From a virus: a DNA stretch of 39,420 nucleotides. Where the stretch lies: IMG/VR virus record IMGVR_UViG_3300020197_000058, positions 1-39,420 of that record. One strand, written 5' to 3'. A program made the translations under genes and the position numbers. Under the pieces are notes generated by a model. It was not told where the DNA came from. It saw only the letters and a program-made list of their open reading frames with translations, and ran no database searches. Positions 2,343 through 39,420 of this stretch are shown here, one piece after another (the first letter of the stretch is position 1; every line of letters begins with the position of its first letter).

Positions 2343-4850
2343 ATGTCTCAAAGATTTTATACTAATGTTCAACTTGTTGGAAATCAATTTCTTGTCCGTG
2401 GTTATGAAAATGGTAAAAGTTTTATAACAAGAGATGAGTGGAGACCAACTCTCTATGTTCCTTCAAAACAAAAAAGTAAATTTAAATCTTTGAGTGGAAA
2501 ATATTTAGAACCAGTTGTTCCTGGTTATGTGCGAGATTGTAGAGAATTCTATAAAAAGTATGATGGAGTAGATGGATTTGAGATTTATGGTAACGATAGA
2601 TACATCTATCAATACATTTCGGAAAATTATCCAGAAGAACGTATTGAATTTGATTTAACTAAGATTAAAGTAGCAACTCTTGACATTGAGGTTGCATCTG
2701 AAAATGGATTTCCAGATGTTGAAAGTTGCTCCGAAGAAATTCTTACTATAACAATACAGGATTACTCAACAAAAAAAATTATTACCTGGGGGATTTATCC
2801 ATTTACAGTTAATCAGGATAATGTTAGGTATATTGAGTGTGGAACAGAGAAGCAGCTGCTATCAAATTTCATTGACTATTGGATGAACAATACTCCAGAA
2901 ATTATTACTGGGTGGAATATTATGCTATATGATATTCCATACATTGTTGGTAGACTGAATCGCATTCTTGGTGAAAATTTGATGAAAAGAATGTCTCTTT
3001 GGGGACTTGTAAATTACAAAGAAATTTATATTCAAGGGAGAAAAAATACTTCTTATGACATTGGTGGTTTGACTCAACTTGATTATCTTGATCTCTATAA
3101 GAAATTCACCTATAAAGCACAGGAGTCTTATCGTCTGGATTACATTGCTGAGGTGGAACTTGGTCAGAAAAAACTTGATCACTCTGAGTACGAAACGTTC
3201 AAAGATTTTTATACTCAAAATTGGCAGAAATTCGTTGAGTATAACATCAAAGACGTAGAACTAGTAGATCAACTTGAAGATAAAATGAAGTTGATTGAAT
3301 TGGCAGTGACTATGGCATACGATGCTAAGGTCAATTTTTCGGATGTGTATTCCCAGGTTCGTATGTGGGATACTATCATTTACAATTATCTCAAGAAAAA
3401 GAACATCATCATTCCACCTAAAGAGAACAAGAAAAAAAGTGAAAGGTATGCTGGTGCTTATGTGAAAGAACCAGTTCCTGGAAAGTATGATTGGGTCGTA
3501 TCATTTGACCTCAACTCTCTATACCCACATTTGATCATGCAGTATAACATTTCACCAGAAACTCTTTTGGATGAGAAACATTCGTTAGCTTCTGTAGACC
3601 GTATTTTGAGTCAACAGATTAATTTTGAGATGTATAAAGACTATGCGGTGTGTGCGAATGGTGCAATGTTCCGTAAAGATGTTCGAGGATTTCTTCCAGA
3701 ACTCATGGAGAAGATTTATAATGAACGTGTTATCTTCAAAGAAAAAATGCTTGCTGCTAAGCAGCAATATGAAAAAACTCCATCTAAAAAATTAGAGAAA
3801 GAGATTGCTCGTTGTAATAACATTCAGATGGCACGAAAGATTCAACTGAACTCTGCTTATGGCGCAATTGGTAATGAATATTTTCGTTATTATAAGTTAG
3901 AAAATGCGGAGGCAATTACTCTGTCTGGGCAAGTTGCAATTCGTTGGATCGAAAATAAAATGAATAGATACCTTAACAAATTGCTTAAAACTGAAAATGA
4001 AGATTATGTTATTGCTTCTGATACTGATTCCATCTATCTCAATTTGGGTCCTTTGGTTCAAACTGTATACAAGGGAAGAGAGAAAACTACTGAAGGTATT
4101 GTTTCGTTCCTTGATAAGGTCTGTAAAATGGAACTTGAAAAGTATATTGAGAGTTCTTACCAAGAGTTGGCAGAGTATGTGAACGCTTATGATCAAAAAA
4201 TGTTCATGAAAAGAGAGAACATTGCTGATCGTGGAATTTGGATGGCAAAGAAAAGATACATTCTAAATGTTTGGGATAGTGAAGGTGTTCGTTATGATGA
4301 ACCAAAACTTAAGATAATGGGAATTGAAGCAATCAAGTCTTCAACACCAGCACCTTGTCGTAAAATGATTAAAGATGCTCTTCAATTAATGATGACGGGT
4401 AGTGAGGATGATGTCATAGAATTTATTGATAGAAAGAAGAAACAATTTAAAACTTTGCCTGCAGAAACAATTTCATTTCCAAGGTCTGTCAATAATGTTG
4501 CAAAATATAAATCAAATTCTGCAAGTCAAATTTATATAAAAGCAACTCCGATTCAAGTTCGTGGTGCTTTATTGTTTAATCATTATATTAAAGAAAATAA
4601 TTTGACTCACAAATATTCTTTAATTCAAAATGGAGAAAAAATTAAATTTTGCTATCTCAAAAAACCAAATCCAATTCATGAAAATGTAATTTCTTTCATT
4701 CAGGAATTTCCCAAGGAACTGAATCTTGACAAATACATAGACTATGAACTACAATTTGAGAAGAGTTTCTTAGAACCACTTAAATCAATTCTTGAGGCAA
4801 TTGGTTGGAAAATAGAAAAAACTGTAAATCTTGAATCATTTTTTGCTTAA
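2343..4850 (+). CDS. 43: DNA polymerase gp43, family B
   Basis: An 835-residue replicative polymerase. The 3'-5' exonuclease comes first: ExoI LDIEVAS near residue 115, Exo[17 protein letters not shown] near 190-205, and Exo[14 protein letters not shown] near 300. The polymerase motifs follow: A ([11 protein letters not shown], near 389), B ([13 protein letters not shown], near 500) and C (ASDTDSIYL, near 560). All catalytic aspartates are present, so the enzyme should be active. The length is normal for cyanophage gp43 and there is no intron or split. The stop TAA overlaps the uvsX ATG as TAATG. Confidence 0.97.
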
Positions 4851-19045: not shown

Positions 19046-19098
19046 AACGTTCATCGGAGAAATCCGACGGAAGTAAGCCGACTCGGAACGGATCGTTC
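19046..19098 (+). ncRNA. Glutamine riboswitch (glnA / downstream-peptide class)
   Basis: P1 is CGTTC (19048-19052) with GAACG (19086-19090). The conserved CATC follows, then a P2 hairpin CGGA-GAAA-TCCG (19055-19066), then the hallmark ACGGAAGTA (19067-19075) and a CCGA...CGGAACG closure. This matches the aptamer shared by the glnA and downstream-peptide RNA motifs, which bind L-glutamine. In phages they sit before short peptide genes, as here. The strand CGTTCATC recurs at 19094-19101, just before the start codon, and GAACG could pair with it instead (three-base loop), giving a candidate switch between two folds. No ribosome site precedes the ATG. Confidence 0.85.
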
Positions 19099-21833: not shown

Positions 21834-21928
21834 TACAATAACTTCATGAGCAGCAGAGGTCCACACTCTGCATAAGTCTCGACCCTCCCATGCCTCTCAA
21901 CGATGCACAAACAGGGAGGTTCCTTTAT

Positions 21929-22106: not shown

Positions 22107-22178
22107 CCGTGGGTAGTCTAGTGGTCAGGACAGGCAGACAATGCACTTGGAGTTTGGGTTCGATTCCCGATCTGCGGC
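22107..22178 (+). tRNA. tRNA-like gene with an aberrant anticodon arm
   Basis: The acceptor CCGTGGG pairs with TCTGCGG (several wobbles), extended by G-1 with C73. The D-arm GTCT-AGTGGTCA-GGAC and the T-arm TTGGG-TTCGATT-CCCGA are normal. The 21 bases between them (GGCAGACAATGCACTTGGAGT) do not form a five-pair stem with a seven-base loop, so no anticodon can be assigned safely. It is either a decayed tRNA, a tRNA mimic, or one whose arm I cannot fold by hand. TTG (Gln) and TGG (Pro) triplets are present but lack a proper stem. Confidence 0.5.
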
Positions 22179-22976: not shown

Positions 22977-22998
22977 ACCATTGGAATACTCAAAATAT

Positions 22999-23080
22999 GG
23001 AGAATAGCACCGATGGTTGGTAAATCGTCTTGAAAACGATGCCAGGGTAACACCTGATAGTTCGATTCTATTATTCTCCG
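22999..23080 (+). tRNA. tRNA-Ser (UGA), copy 1
   Basis: A perfect acceptor GGAGAAT with ATTCTCC, anticodon loop CTTGAAA in stem ATCGT/ACGAT, a long variable arm (CCAGGGTAACACCTG) and T-arm GATAG-TTCGATT-CTATT. A second gene with the same anticodon lies at 39154. Confidence 0.88.
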
Positions 23081-23137
23081 TTACTATTAATATACATTTT
23101 AGATTTTATTAATGTATGTTTTGAAATTCTCACAAAG

Positions 23138-24402: not shown

Positions 24403-24409
24403 TTTTTAT

Positions 24410-24497
24410 GCGAGTGAGACTTGGTAGTCAGAGGAGTCTTATAAACTCTTTCCGCCAGATTAGCGGCTTTGACCTGGTTCGAATCCAGGCACTCGTA
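24410..24497 (+). tRNA. Class II tRNA with long variable arm; anticodon reads UAU
   Basis: Acceptor GCGAGTG with CACTCGT, anticodon stem GGAGT/ACTCT around the loop CTTATAA, a long variable arm (CCGC-CAGATTA-GCGG) and a canonical T-arm CCTGG-TTCGAAT-CCAGG. By the code UAU reads AUA (Ile), but long variable arms belong to Leu, Ser and Tyr. A one-base change from a Leu UAA loop (CTTAAAA type) would explain it. Base 8 is A instead of the near-universal T. Identity is therefore open. Confidence 0.72.
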
Positions 24498-24500
24498 TCT

Positions 24501-25198: not shown

Positions 25199-25405
25199 AT
25201 GACACCTTACGAACTTAGATTCAACATTTTTCAGGAAGCAGAAGCATTAGCAGATCGTCAGTATCAATCTGAATATGCTGCTGTTACAATGTGGAATGAA
25301 AAACAATGTAACTCAAATAACTTGAAAGAATTTCCAACATTTCCTACTTTTGAGTATATTCAACAACTTGCCGAGAATATTAATAACTTTGTAAGTTCTA
25401 AGTAG
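25199..25405 (+). CDS. 68-residue conserved cyanophage protein, unknown
   Basis: Reads MTPYELRFNIFQEAEALADR then a middle helix and FPTFPTFEYIQQLAENINNF at the end. The helical pattern and the PTFE...LA...IN end recall a small family seen in many T4-like cyanophages. An AAGGAG site lies seven bases before the ATG. The 121 bases before it hold no promoter that I trust. Function unknown. Confidence 0.8.
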   Translation: MTPYELRFNIFQEAEALADRQYQSEYAAVTMWNEKQCNSNNLKEFPTFPTFEYIQQLAENINNFVSSK

Positions 25406-25488
25406 GTTTCCAATTTCCTAAAAAAATTGGTGGTGCGGATGGAGAATACTCCCGCCTGGTTTCCAATTTCCAGTTAAAGAATTGGTGG
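25405..25488. repeat. Two copies of an imperfect hairpin unit GGTTTCCAATTTCC...AATTGGTGG
   Basis: Copy 1 is 25405-25433 and copy 2 is 25458-25488. Each begins with the same 14 bases and ends with the same nine, and each can fold through CCAATT with AATTGG. A third element, GGAAACC at 25508-25514 followed by eight T, can pair with the GGTTTCC of either copy. The array lies between a small gene and tRNA-Gly. Confidence 0.8.
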
Positions 25489-25506
25489 CGAGCCTGAAAC
25501 TTAAGA

Positions 25507-35916: not shown

Positions 35917-36878
35917 AAATTGCATTGATAGGTCCAGGCATCATAGAAATCCCACCTAAAGGATGGGGTGCTGTTGAAAGTTTGATCTGGGATTATGCAA
36001 CAGAGTTGACTGAGTTGGGACATGAAGGTGTTATTATTAATACTCCAGATCCAAATCAAATTATACTAGAACTAAAGCAAGATGATTTTGATTTTATACA
36101 TGTTCATTATGATATGTTTTATCCTCTCATGGATTACATTTATTCTACGTATCCTAAAACAAAACTTGCGATAAGTTCCCATTATCCATATATTGATCAA
36201 CCAGATAGGCATCAGTACGATGGATACTATCGTGTCTATGATTGGTTAATTCATAATGATAAGTATTACAATTTTTGTATTTCCAAAAAGGATTATGAAA
36301 CATTTAAAAAAGATGGAGCATCAACTGATAAACTTTTAGTTTGTGAAAATGGTGCATCACATCGTACTTATTCATTTCAAGAAAAGGCATCTAAACCAGA
36401 TAAAACTTTATACCTTGGAAAAATTGAATTAAGAAAAAGGCAGTATCTTTATCAAAAAATAGATAGCATAGATTTTGTTGGGCACTATACCAACACAACA
36501 TCATTTGATCCAAATAAAAATTATCTTGGAGAGTGGGAGCACGAATATAAGTTGCAACATGTCACCGATTATGGTAATATGTTACTTCTATCTGATGGAG
36601 AGAATGGAACTCCTCTTGTAATTAAAGAGGCACTAATATGTGGGTTGGGTGTAGTTGTATCTCAGTATGCAGCACATGACTTAGATCAATCTCTACCTTT
36701 TGTTACAGTTATTCCGGATGATAAATGGGATGATATTGAATTTGTAAATCAAAAACTGATTGAAAATAGAAAAATTTCTATTTCAATGCGAAAAAAAATA
36801 CGTGATTATGGTGTAAATAATTTTTCATGGGAACACTTAGTTAAGATTTACGTTAAAAACATTGAGGAAATGAAATGA
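35913..36878 (+). CDS. GT4-type (GT-B) glycosyltransferase
   Basis: A 321-residue GT-B enzyme. The start MKIALIGPGIIEIPPKGWGA, then VESLIWDYATELTELGHE, is the GT4 N-terminal motif with the G-G-(x)-E-like donor/acceptor loop. ENGASHRTY near 150 and LYLGKIELRKRQYLYQ near 166 mark the second domain. LLLSDGENGTPLVIKEALICGLGVVVS near 230 carries the E-x7-E motif of retaining GT-B enzymes. It is a close paralogue of the N-terminal half of the next gene and overlaps it by four bases. Confidence 0.86.
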   Translation: MKIALIGPGIIEIPPKGWGAVESLIWDYATELTELGHEGVIINTPDPNQIILELKQDDFDFIHVHYDMFYPLMDYIYSTYPKTKLAISSHYPYIDQPDRHQYDGYYRVYDWLIHNDKYYNFCISKKDYETFKKDGASTDKLLVCENGASHRTYSFQEKASKPDKTLYLGKIELRKRQYLYQKIDSIDFVGHYTNTTSFDPNKNYLGEWEHEYKLQHVTDYGNMLLLSDGENGTPLVIKEALICGLGVVVSQYAAHDLDQSLPFVTVIPDDKWDDIEFVNQKLIENRKISISMRKKIRDYGVNNFSWEHLVKIYVKNIEEMK

Positions 36879-38641
36879 AGATAAGTATTGTTGGTCCTGG
36901 GTTAATGCCAATTCCCCCCAAAGGATGGGGTGCTGTGGAGAGTTTAATATGGGACATGAACAATGCTCTTCAAGAACTTGGACATGAAGTTCAAATTGTA
37001 AATACCACTGATGCAAACGAAGTTTTAAAACAAATTAATAATTTTAATCCCGACTTTGTTCATGTAAATTATGATGATTTTATTGTCTTATATCCATTCA
37101 TTGATAAACCAAAGGCAATGACATCTCACTTTGGTTATCTGGAAAGACCAGACATGATGAGTTCTTATGTAAACATTTTTAATAAGTTTACAGAGATTAA
37201 GCCAAACATCTTTTGTCTTTCTGAAGGAATTAAAAAAATCTATAAAATTTTTAGTTCTTTTCCAGATGAAAAACTTTTTGTTTCACCAAATGGTGTAAAC
37301 TTAGATGTGTTTAGATTTACACTTGAACCAAAGTATGCTGATCGCAGTATCTATCTTGCAAAGATAGATTATAGAAAGAGGCAAAATTTATTTCAAGAGA
37401 TTCAAAGTCTTTATTTTGCGGGAAACATTGTAGACGAAAGGTACAATACTAAAAATAATTATCTTGGAGAGTGGTCAAAGGAGAAACTCTTTCAAGAGTT
37501 AACAGATTACGGAAATCTTGTGCTTCTTTCTGATGGAGAGGCACATTCTCTTGTAGTTATGGAAGCATTTGCTGCTGGACTTGGTGTTGTGATTAGTGAG
37601 TTCGCAACAGCAAATTTAGATTTAACTAAGGATTTTATCACTATAATTCCTGAGAAGAAAATCAATGACATAAAATTTGTAGAAGATGCTATAATTAAAA
37701 ACAGAGAATACTCCATACAACACCGTGAAGAAATCAGAGAATATGCAAAACAATTTGAGTGGAAAAATGTTTTGCAAAAACATTACATACCAAACATTGA
37801 AAAACTTATTCAAGAACAACAAACACAAAAATTGATGACTTATAGTGTAAATTACTTGGAGAATAATAAAGCTAAGCCTAAACTTTCTGGATTTGGACCT
37901 CTGTACTACATCAATCTTGATGAACAACCAGAAAGAAATGCTGAGATGCAAAGAATGCTTGATTACTGGGGAATCAGTGCTACTCGTATTTCTGCTTATG
38001 ATGGTAGAAATGATGATTTAAGTGAAATTATTTCGGGTCGTTATCCGGAGGGAGTTACATCTGGAGAAGTTGGATGTGTAACATCACATCTCAAAGCAAT
38101 TAAGCATTGGTATGAAACATCAAATACAGATTATGCTATTTTTGCTGAGGATGATGTTAGTTTTGATACTGCAAGATTTTGGAAATTTTCTTGGAAAGAT
38201 TTCTTTTCTAAAATTCCTTATGACTGGGATTGTGTGCAACTTGCAATTATCAATCCTGGAGCAGTCTATGCCAACTTACATCAAAGGTGGGTGAATGATT
38301 TTTCTACAGCTTGCTACATGATCACTCGACATCATGCAGAAAAATTAATTAAATATCATTGTAGAGGAGACAAATACAAATTGGATAATGGTGTTGCTCC
38401 TCGTGCCGTTGCTGACGATCTGATTTATAATTGTGGAAAGACTTATGCAATTCCACTTTTTCATTATAAAATTGAATTAGGATCATCTATTCACCCAGAA
38501 CATCTTGAAATTTTTCATCGTTCCTCTTATACGGGTATTTTAGATTATTGGAGGGAGACCGCTTCAAGAATGGAAGATCAAATGGTATTATTTAATTATG
38601 ATCCATATCTTGGAAGACTTCCACCAGAAGCTAATAAATGA
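36875..38641 (+). CDS. Fused GT4-GT25 glycosyltransferase
   Basis: A 588-residue two-enzyme fusion. Residues 1-315 are GT4, paralogous to the previous gene (shared PPKGWGAVESLIWD, LAKIDYRKRQNL, LLSDGEAHSLVVMEAFAAGLG). A linker of about 25 polar residues follows. Residues 345-588 are a GT25 (LPS beta-1,4-galactosyltransferase LgtB/glycan) domain: LYYINLDEQPERNAEM, GEVGCVTSHLKAIKHW, YAIFAEDDVSF near 421 (E-D-D metal site) and CYMITRHHAEKLI. The domains could act one after the other on the same chain. It is the last gene of the sugar cluster. Confidence 0.88.
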   Translation: MKISIVGPGLMPIPPKGWGAVESLIWDMNNALQELGHEVQIVNTTDANEVLKQINNFNPDFVHVNYDDFIVLYPFIDKPKAMTSHFGYLERPDMMSSYVNIFNKFTEIKPNIFCLSEGIKKIYKIFSSFPDEKLFVSPNGVNLDVFRFTLEPKYADRSIYLAKIDYRKRQNLFQEIQSLYFAGNIVDERYNTKNNYLGEWSKEKLFQELTDYGNLVLLSDGEAHSLVVMEAFAAGLGVVISEFATANLDLTKDFITIIPEKKINDIKFVEDAIIKNREYSIQHREEIREYAKQFEWKNVLQKHYIPNIEKLIQEQQTQKLMTYSVNYLENNKAKPKLSGFGPLYYINLDEQPERNAEMQRMLDYWGISATRISAYDGRNDDLSEIISGRYPEGVTSGEVGCVTSHLKAIKHWYETSNTDYAIFAEDDVSFDTARFWKFSWKDFFSKIPYDWDCVQLAIINPGAVYANLHQRWVNDFSTACYMITRHHAEKLIKYHCRGDKYKLDNGVAPRAVADDLIYNCGKTYAIPLFHYKIELGSSIHPEHLEIFHRSSYTGILDYWRETASRMEDQMVLFNYDPYLGRLPPEANK

Positions 38642-38644
38642 TAC

Positions 38645-38674
38645 TTGACAAAATCTTAAAAAATGTGTTAAGAT
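38645..38674 (+). promoter_or_regulatory. Probable sigma-70 promoter before the secreted-protein gene
   Basis: A perfect -35 TTGACA (38645-38650), then an 18-base spacer and a weak -10 TAAGAT (38669-38674). It lies just after the sugar cluster. Confidence 0.5.
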
Positions 38675-38678
38675 TACT

Positions 38679-38698
38679 TGCCCTTAATTTTTTGGGCA
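38679..38698 (+). terminator. Hairpin TGCCC...GGGCA in the leader of the secreted-protein gene
   Basis: TGCCC (38679-38683) pairs with GGGCA (38694-38698) around a T-rich ten-base loop, with no T run after it. A related hairpin precedes the paralogous gene at 39279. It may be a leader structure of the duplicated module rather than a terminator. Confidence 0.4.
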
Positions 38699-38720
38699 CT
38701 ATCCTATGTTTTTAATTTTT

Positions 38721-39098
38721 ATGAAACAATTCCTTGCTCTTGCTGTTCTCCCTATGATGACAGCACCTGCTATGGCAGCTCCTTACGTGGAGTCGAAGAC
38801 CACTGTAGGTCTTTCTGATGGCACCTACAAAGGTTCCCAGACTGAACTTCGTGTTGGTTACGAAGAGAAAGTTGCTCCTACTGTAACTCTCTATGGTGAA
38901 ATCGGTCCTGGTTATGAGTGGACGGCGGTTGATGGATACCTGCAGGGCACTGGTGAAACCGTTGTCGTTGGTGAAGTTGGTGTAACGGTGCAAGCATCCG
39001 AACGTGTTAGCATCAATGCTAAAGTTGGTGGTGAGTACGGTAACACTAGCGAACTCTTTGACCTTGGTGGCGAACTGAAAGTTCGTTACTCTTTCTGA
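38721..39098 (+). CDS. Secreted beta-rich protein, outer-membrane-barrel-like
   Basis: A 125-residue protein with a signal peptide (MKQFLALAVLPMMTAPAMA, cut before APYV). The mature part is made of alternating strands with Gly and aromatic residues (TELRVGYEEKV, VTLYGEIGPGYEW, VVVGEVGVTVQ, ELKVRYSF) and ends in Phe, as outer-membrane barrels do. The start at 38721 rather than ATG 38706 is supported by the paralogous N-terminus at 39279. Codon use is richer in GC than the neighbours, suggesting high expression or a different origin. No ribosome site is clear. Confidence 0.78.
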   Translation: MKQFLALAVLPMMTAPAMAAPYVESKTTVGLSDGTYKGSQTELRVGYEEKVAPTVTLYGEIGPGYEWTAVDGYLQGTGETVVVGEVGVTVQASERVSINAKVGGEYGNTSELFDLGGELKVRYSF

Positions 39099-39110
39099 TA
39101 ACATAGGGGG

Positions 39111-39139
39111 TTGACATACTCCCACCCTCCCTATATACT
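39111..39139 (+). promoter_or_regulatory. Sigma-70 promoter before tRNA-Ser, -10 inside a perfect inverted repeat
   Basis: TTGACA (39111-39116), a 17-base spacer and TATACT (39134-39139). The inverted repeat ACCCTCCC (39124-39131) and GGGAGGGT (39140-39147) encloses the -10 box exactly. Confidence 0.85.
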
Positions 39140-39153
39140 GGGAGGGTAAACAT

Positions 39154-39238
39154 GGAAAGGTGGCCGAGTGGTTTAAGGCAGCAGTCTTGAAAACTGCCGA
39201 TGTGAAAGCATCCGTTGGTTCGAATCCAACCACTTCCG
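39154..39238 (+). tRNA. tRNA-Ser (UGA), copy 2
   Basis: Anticodon stem GCAGT/ACTGC with loop CTTGAAA, a long variable arm (GATG-TGAAAG-CATC) and T-arm GTTGG-TTCGAAT-CCAAC. The acceptor GGAAAGG with CACTTCC has two mismatched positions (5-68 and 6-67). It has its own consensus promoter. It repeats the anticodon of the tRNA at 22999 but is not a recent copy. Confidence 0.9.
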
Positions 39239-39239
39239 T

Positions 39240-39256
39240 TGCCCTTTGGGCATTTT
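39240..39256 (+). terminator. Terminator or processing hairpin after tRNA-Ser
   Basis: TGCCC (39240-39244) pairs with GGGCA (39248-39252) around TTT, then TTTT. It is the downstream member of the repeated TGCCC/GGGCA leader hairpin. Confidence 0.65.
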
Positions 39257-39278
39257 GTAAACATAACATTAGAAAAAT

Positions 39279-39420
39279 ATGAAACAATTGCTTGCCCTTG
39301 CTGCTCTTCCTTTTATGGCAGCACCTGTGATGGAAGCACCTGTTATGGCAGCTCCTCGTGTGAAAACAAAAATCTCTCGTCCTATTAAAATGAAAGACAA
39401 TCTAACTGGAATCAAAATCA
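39279..39420 (+). CDS. Second secreted-protein gene, cut by the window end
   Basis: Begins MKQLLALAALPFMAAPVMEA then PVMAAPRVKTK, a signal peptide closely related to that at 38721 (MKQFLALAVLPMMTAPAMAAP) with an extra PVMEA/PVMAA repeat. The mature part starts basic (KTKISRPIKMKDN) and runs out of the window without a stop. It is probably a paralogue from a local duplication, though only the signal region can be compared. Confidence 0.78.
   Translation, partial: MKQLLALAALPFMAAPVMEAPVMAAPRVKTKISRPIKMKDNLTGIKI

Follow-up and report, generated by a model that had tools for sequence, protein, structure and literature searches.

Two neighbouring genes at the end of a viral DNA record begin with related signal peptides, each preceded by a TGCCC/GGGCA leader hairpin, and a serine tRNA gene lies between them. 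This arrangement raises the question of whether the locus is a duplicated secreted-protein module or was assembled in another way. The window, meaning the whole stretch of DNA that was analysed, is the complete 39,420-base IMG/VR record IMGVR_UViG_3300020197_000058, and its replication genes are 75-77% identical to those of T4-like Synechococcus phages (DSL-LC03, obtained from a lake, and S-SRM01). A sequence-only reading had described the repeated hairpins and signal peptides, the intervening tRNA and a short repeat within the second signal region, and had interpreted them as a duplication. These observations are mostly right and were recovered here, while the duplication is wrong: the mature part of the first protein and that of the second, read from its complete relative in locus L009, are unrelated (best E 4.3).

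Genomic context of the locus

Glycan genes, including those for epimerases and glycosyltransferases of families GT6, GT11 and GT25, occupy about 13 kb just upstream in the window, and the GT25 glycosyltransferase is the final gene of this cluster. The features from this gene to the end of the record are as follows.

36875..38641, + strand: upstream glycosyltransferase with a GT25 C-terminal domain (PF01755, E 1.1e-9)
38645..38674, + strand: sigma-70-like promoter of gene 1, TTGACA-18 nt-TAAGAT (from sequence, by pattern scan)
38679..38698, + strand: leader hairpin 1, TGCCC/GGGCA, with a 5-bp stem (arms 38679-38683/38694-38698) and a 10-nt loop
38721..39098, + strand: gene 1, Phage_OMP, 125 aa (PF24653, E 1.3e-22; phrog_417, E 3.5e-21)
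38721-38777, + strand: putative Sec-type signal peptide of gene 1, MKQFLALAVLPMM
38778-39095, + strand: predicted mature barrel of gene 1, about 106 aa (from sequence and family)
39111..39139, + strand: promoter-like site of the tRNA-Ser/gene-2 unit, TTGACA-17 nt-TATACT
39153..39239, + strand: tRNA-Ser(UGA) (ARAGORN; Infernal 50.1 bits at 39154-39238)
39240..39252, + strand: leader hairpin 2, TGCCC-TTT-GGGCA, with a 5-bp stem (arms 39240-39244/39248-39252), abutting the 3' end of tRNA-Ser
39279..39420, + strand: gene 2, 47 codons up to the record end, comprising a signal peptide, a linker and the start of a probable glycoside-hydrolase-like protein (from homologues L009 and L041)
39279..39353, + strand: putative signal region of gene 2, MKQLLALAALPFMAAPVMEAPVMAA, which starts with MKQLLALAALPFM
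39390..39420, + strand: start of the enzyme-like domain at a retained ancestral Met, MKDNLTGIKI (from L056:5001 and alignment)

Several RNA elements were recorded elsewhere in the window. A wcaG RNA (93.7 bits) lies at 25402-25499 (+), upstream of the glycan cluster, and a borderline match to the Glutamine riboswitch (35.4 bits, cut-off 35) at 19046-19094 (+). An abiF RNA (RF03085; 53.8 bits vs a cut-off of 37) at 21884-21920 (+) stands just before a tRNA cluster, and another occurs in L010 (2539-2575) beside tRNA-Arg; PADLOC found no AbiF-type protein among the 8 ORFs near the copy in the window. At 22998-23081, 24409-24499 and 22107-22178 there are two tRNAs that ARAGORN alone recognised and a third that was reported just by Infernal, i.e. 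decayed or unusual tRNAs.

Gene 1 belongs to the cyanophage outer membrane protein-like barrel family

Judged by its sequence, gene 1 falls squarely within PF24653, "Cyanophage outer membrane protein like beta barrel domain" (alias DUF680/PhCOG173, phrog_417), and probably encodes the standard outer-membrane beta-barrel protein of cyanophages. It scored 80.8 bits, three times the curated family cut-off of 27, along positions 3-122 of the 122 in the model. It resembles the other members in size, signal peptide, C-terminal aromatic residue and six predicted strands, and departs from them only by normal divergence and by a leader of the single-hairpin type, many relatives having a two-hairpin type. 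A related protein from L018 matches 447 phage records, of which 443 are named Synechococcus, Prochlorococcus or Cyanophage.

An AF2 model of gene 1 has six strands (pLDDT 72, pTM 0.57). It aligned with OprF (4rlc) at Z 10.8 and 3.2 A over 102 residues, with OmpA and NspA tied, so that these small outer-membrane barrels all gave Z 10-11 over about 100 residues; the best viral matches in Foldseek are the Phage_OMP family itself. The model (38721-39095) thus shows only six strands, fewer than eight, and the smallest known monomeric outer-membrane barrels have eight. Given the six predicted strands, the product may act as an oligomer. The proposal of the sequence-only reading that exported beta-rich proteins reach the host envelope is therefore supported for gene 1 by its family and by its OmpA/OprF-like model, and is not supported for gene 2, whose relatives are glycoside-hydrolase-like.

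Published data bear on homologues of this gene. In phage S-TIM4 the homologue ORF224, called nonstructural, accumulated frameshifts, nonsense changes and deletions on evolution with Synechococcus WH8102, and these changes reached a summed frequency of about 100% on that host (PMC6224464). Because S-TIM4 loses the homologue in one host under selection, the Phage_OMP gene appears to affect host-dependent fitness; the same paper reads it as a nutrient-response gene (PMC6224464). LC-MS of the structural proteome of S-SZBM1 identified the homologue there (PMC9146016).

In 21 fetched loci, redundant copies included (among them L047, L075, L093, L101, L128, L134, L136, L141 and L145), Phage_OMP genes stand in neighbouring pairs with a spacing of about 0.4-0.6 kb; often one gene of the pair has a two-hairpin leader and the other a different leader. 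Downstream of position 5345 in L010, a reading frame that looks PstS-like by eye, with its own signal peptide, lies directly 3' of the OMP gene.

Gene 2 is a chimera

The record ends at 39420, which leaves gene 2 with only its first 47 codons. Searching with a 48-aa stretch revealed one complete relative, L009:2048-3091, which encodes 347 aa and is 83% identical over the shared 47 aa, and a second, incomplete one with the signal region, L041. The surroundings in L009 are like those of the window with a changed order, namely glycosyltransferase, gene 2 and then an OMP gene; the glycosyltransferase preceding the gene-2 homologue there (L009:1181-1966) is 62% identical to that of the window over 258 aa. 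By analogy with L009, the gene-2 product of the window phage is assumed to be intact. An assembly artefact of one contig was considered and rejected, as the junction region recurs in L009 and L041.

The L009 protein in turn identified L056, a 55-kb cyanophage contig with tail-fibre similarity to Synechococcus phages. The L056 protein begins exactly at MKDNLTGI (L056:5001), with an in-frame stop 7 codons upstream, and from the shared ATG its DNA is identical to the window at 30 of 31 nt. The window retains this former start as M38 (39390), and in alignment A2 L009 and L041 have Ile in its place. Five further distinct relatives, all lacking a signal peptide, came from a motif search (L060, L064, L065, L066 and L067; L063 duplicates L066 and was counted once). 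Together with L056, 6/6 lack a signal peptide and have a stop codon in frame 7-8 codons upstream of the ATG. Since all six relatives outside the window/L009/L041 group lack the signal peptide, its gain within this group is the simpler history. On this sequence comparison gene 2 is a chimera, in which a leader and signal peptide of the OMP type are fused before an enzyme-like protein of about 303 aa.

No match was obtained by tblastn with the 47-aa gene-2 fragment in phages or with the degenerate peptide pattern KI..PIKMKDN in viral contigs (0 matches), and no homologues of the L009 or L060 protein were found in 50,697 phage records, or of the L056 or L060 protein in 72,556 plasmid records (tblastn). 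Scans of genome contigs with the L009 protein and with alignment A2 also gave none.

A glycoside-hydrolase-like enzyme is the best reading

The gene-2 family is named by none of the libraries searched here. None of its members reaches a Pfam cut-off, L009 and L056, the nearest complete relatives, gave no Pfam match at all, no NCBIfam or PHROGs match was found, a PDB sequence search returned nothing credible, and the searches run gave no match to a peptidoglycan-hydrolase family. Two distant members come just under the threshold for Cellulase/GH5 (PF00150), L060 with E 5.7e-5 and 23.2 bits vs the cut-off of 23.5, and L067 with E 6.1e-4 and 19.8 bits. In the alignment there are about eight strand-like motifs, which we read as a clan GH-A barrel, and N178-E179 is invariant in 5/5 aligned relatives; its placement in strand 4 is by motif alone, and the window copy ends before NE. 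The only conserved acids in the strand-7 region are D251/D253, so the canonical GH5 nucleophile Glu is not evident in the alignment.

The near-threshold Cellulase/GH5 matches and the invariant NE indicate that the family is probably glycoside-hydrolase-like. It is not filed as GH5, because the alignment shows no canonical second Glu and AF2 gave a pLDDT of only 35 for a gene-2 relative, modelled with 4 sequences. Compared with clan GH-A (Cellulase PF00150/GH5 and Apiosidase PF13204), distant members of the family have sub-threshold matches over part of the barrel, NE included; the family differs in staying below the cut-off, in the strand-7 Glu not being evident and in its nearest relatives having no Pfam match. 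Phage glycan enzymes that work outside the virion, such as GH32 of Bacillus phages, offer a parallel, since they too are sugar enzymes with a predicted extracellular action. PMC4595243 reports no signal peptide in the phage GH32 enzymes, whereas gene 2 has had one added. In the part of the literature surveyed, no signal-peptide-bearing glycoside hydrolase of a cyanophage was found.

Origin of the gene-2 signal peptide

The signal-peptide DNAs of the two window genes are 83% identical over 64 nt, and the PVMEA/PVMAA repeat (39324-39353) offers gene 2 two candidate signal-peptidase sites. The closest counterparts of the gene-2 signal DNA are found elsewhere: it is 88-90% identical to OMP signal peptides of L021, L016, L020, L018 and L002, against 82% to gene 1, and the best counterparts of its 5'UTR are OMP leaders linked to tRNAs (L019 77%, L015 69%, L094 68%). 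Where the gene-2 signal peptide and the L021 OMP have the same amino acid, 11 of 12 codons are identical, above codon-usage expectation (P 0.0006); the other seven OMP comparisons, window gene 1 among them, gave P 0.0007-0.04, all eight values being uncorrected. A pattern for MKQ(F)-type signal peptides found 12 stretches in viral contigs, and 12/12 encode OMPs, several being mutual copies. The excess of identical codons, together with the similarity of UTR and signal DNA, argues for a common DNA origin with OMP leaders, and for neither convergence nor a local copy.

A signal peptide nearly that of gene 1 was also observed on an SLH-domain, porin-like phage protein of 291 aa (L012:5001-5876, also L013), for which the codon test was not significant (P 0.08). 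Three mature proteins that are unrelated to one another, namely the OMP, the glycoside-hydrolase-like enzyme and the SLH porin-like protein of L012, accordingly bear similar signal peptides.

Leader hairpins and promoters

Hairpin 1 starts 4 nt past the -10 box, which from the spacing is predicted to be at about +1 of the mRNA. A long-loop hairpin pattern occurs once in the window, with 0 expected in shuffles, and excludes hairpin 2, whose loop is shorter. Taken singly, the window hairpins fold modestly better than chance, as 11/200 and 23/200 shuffles fold as well. With single-hairpin statistics so modest, the case for their reality rests on the relatives, which carry them. In the closest relative, L002, hairpin 1 reads TGTCC/GGACA, a compensatory change, and the replacement of C-G by U-A in the window-type stem occurred there and, separately, in L094. 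An arrangement with the hairpin abutting a tRNA was also found before OMP genes in L016, L019, L020, L025, L080, L094 and L015. The sequence-only reading had regarded an unrelated second mature protein together with unconserved hairpins as speaking against it; the mature parts are indeed unrelated, yet the hairpins are conserved as structures. At the two leaders there was no match to the Rfam cis-regulatory RNAs of cyanophages (wcaG, PhotoRC), the 38600-39420 region giving only the tRNA and one chance-level match. A hairpin-plus-ATG pattern run over viral contigs hit 11 stretches, none preceding an OMP-like gene.

The -10 box of the tRNA-Ser promoter is situated in the loop of a palindrome (39124-39147). 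A -10-like box likewise lies in a palindrome loop in L042, L047 and L048, and leaders of the L042 type then have a T run, which we read as a promoter and a terminator-like hairpin combined.

Hairpins of varying sequence are found about 20-50 nt before the ATG of OMP genes. From 144 OMP ORFs, 141 had a leader and 55 remained after those at least 80% alike were dropped; 167 control leaders from the same loci (159 non-redundant) provided 150 drawn at random. The -50..-16 interval, which was picked after a first inspection of leader hairpins, folds better than shuffles (p<=0.05) in 31/55 OMP leaders vs 12/150 controls (Fisher 1.3e-12), and the wider -75..-16 stretch in 36/55 vs 39/150 (4.7e-7). 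The evidence from these sequences is that the leaders of OMP genes are structured RNA.

Three types of leaders could be distinguished. Type 1 has a stem 1-8 nt past the -10 box (window gene 1, L001, L002, L023, L029, L045 and others); such a stem follows the -10 box in 11/14 promoter-bearing OMP leaders vs 4/7 control promoters, which is not significant (P 0.35). In type 2 the stem abuts a tRNA, as in 8/8 export genes vs 41/133 other tRNAs (P 1.4e-4; L094 was placed with the OMP genes by hand, and L014 is a copy of the window). Type 3 is a two-hairpin leader, the first hairpin with a GUCGA loop and the second with a CAUCYGCRGG...CYGCRAG stem, located about 70 nt before Phage_OMP starts (L003, L006, L017, L073, L093, L136 and others). 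In this leader both-side changes occur at 7/12 pairs, a number also reached by shuffles; double-changed cells number 32 vs 15 in shuffles (0/500 as high), and the second helix is 100% paired. A model of it has no Rfam family match and found 39 places, all directly before an OMP gene (18 being training sequences), plus one chance-level match in the window (3800-3861, minus strand, E 0.8), which was left out. Within the loci searched, the motif is confined to Phage_OMP leaders. Pho-box-like sites were detected in 7/55 OMP leaders vs 3/150 controls, and at none of the window genes.

Stem-loops of the ompA type at the 5' terminus stabilise bacterial mRNAs by slowing 5'-end-dependent decay. The window leaders resemble them in having a short stem that precedes the ribosome site and lies at or near the predicted 5' end of the mRNA, and differ in that this position would be set by a promoter or by the 3' end of a tRNA.

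Proposed function and alternative explanations

The explanation that we consider rather probable, taken as a whole, is that an island of glycan genes in a T4-like Synechococcus phage ends in this locus, which carries two proteins destined for export, a standard OMP barrel and a chimeric sugar-active enzyme. The 5' module of an OMP gene, consisting of a tRNA-linked leader hairpin, a short UTR and a signal peptide, would have been joined to the gene of the glycoside-hydrolase-like protein at its start codon or close to it. The mRNA of gene 1 would begin at its hairpin through transcription start, while that of gene 2 would be freed by excision of tRNA-Ser (3' processing), leaving the hairpin as its 5' end. 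Hairpins at these ends may protect the message and keep the start codon open. The infected cell would thus place the small barrel into its outer membrane, and the enzyme would leave the cytoplasm before lysis for the periplasm or surface, where it may trim or remodel glycans built by the neighbouring glycosyltransferases. A broader idea, tentative and less likely than not, is that of an export cassette which moves between cyanophage genes and makes cytoplasmic phage enzymes secreted; it would consist of a 5' end defined by promoter or tRNA, an end hairpin and a signal peptide.

If the OMP gene had been duplicated locally in tandem, with the tRNA between the copies and the second copy diverging, the 83% identity of the signal regions would be accounted for, and adjacent OMP genes do exist in the 21 loci mentioned above. 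Such an origin is nevertheless very improbable, since the signal DNA and the UTR of gene 2 both have closer counterparts in OMP genes of other cyanophages than in gene 1; moreover, gene 2 of L009 adjoins an OMP whose signal peptide differs markedly. A local duplication is largely refuted by L009 and L056, and gene 2 as a second OMP was rejected on its unrelated mature part. A separate objection concerns the hairpins, which could belong to the tRNAs or promoters as 3' trailers, processing signals, terminators or promoter palindromes, unrelated to the exported genes. The abutting hairpins of the 41 other tRNAs, those of the four control promoters and the palindrome around the tRNA-Ser -10 box agree with this view; against it, the hairpin of gene 1 has no adjoining tRNA, all eight tRNA-linked export genes have a hairpin, and the enrichment before OMP genes over other genes of the same loci is large. 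We think this view rather unlikely.

Cyanobacterial Sec signals serve the periplasm and the thylakoid lumen alike, and the gene-2 protein could accordingly be exported to the lumen, or for lysis or particle release by acting on cell wall or slime, instead of remodelling surface glycans. The neighbourhood in DSL-LC02 continues into genes annotated as C39 peptidase and lysozyme, ORFs of similar appearance are present by eye in L009, and the relatives lacking a signal peptide could get outside only at lysis. Considering the missing peptidoglycan-hydrolase match in the searches above and the adjoining glycosyltransferases, we are doubtful of such a role. Superinfection exclusion, in which gene 1, and possibly gene 2, would alter the host envelope and stop adsorption of other phages, matches the envelope-type nature of gene 1 and the loss of ORF224 in one S-TIM4 host under selection (PMC6224464). 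The nutrient-response interpretation in that same paper and the LC-MS detection of the homologue in the S-SZBM1 structural proteome (PMC9146016) run counter to it, and it appears improbable. Surface remodelling, the other role suggested in the sequence-only reading, fits better than before, because gene 2 looks sugar-active and stands beside a glycan gene cluster.

Implications

The preferred reading, an OMP barrel next to a chimeric enzyme, makes gene 2 a clear case in which a virus gained export of an enzyme through the attachment of a leader and signal peptide; unsecreted relatives are still extant and the old start Met is visible at the junction. DUF680/Phage_OMP genes are abundant and functionally unknown, and experimental evolution has shown that such a gene matters for host fit (PMC6224464); their structured leaders provide a handle on them. 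If the export cassette is real, a tRNA gene would double as a device making the 5' end of an mRNA. If the enzyme acts on host glycans, a lytic phage would edit the exterior of the infected cell before lysis, beside its own glycan-building genes.
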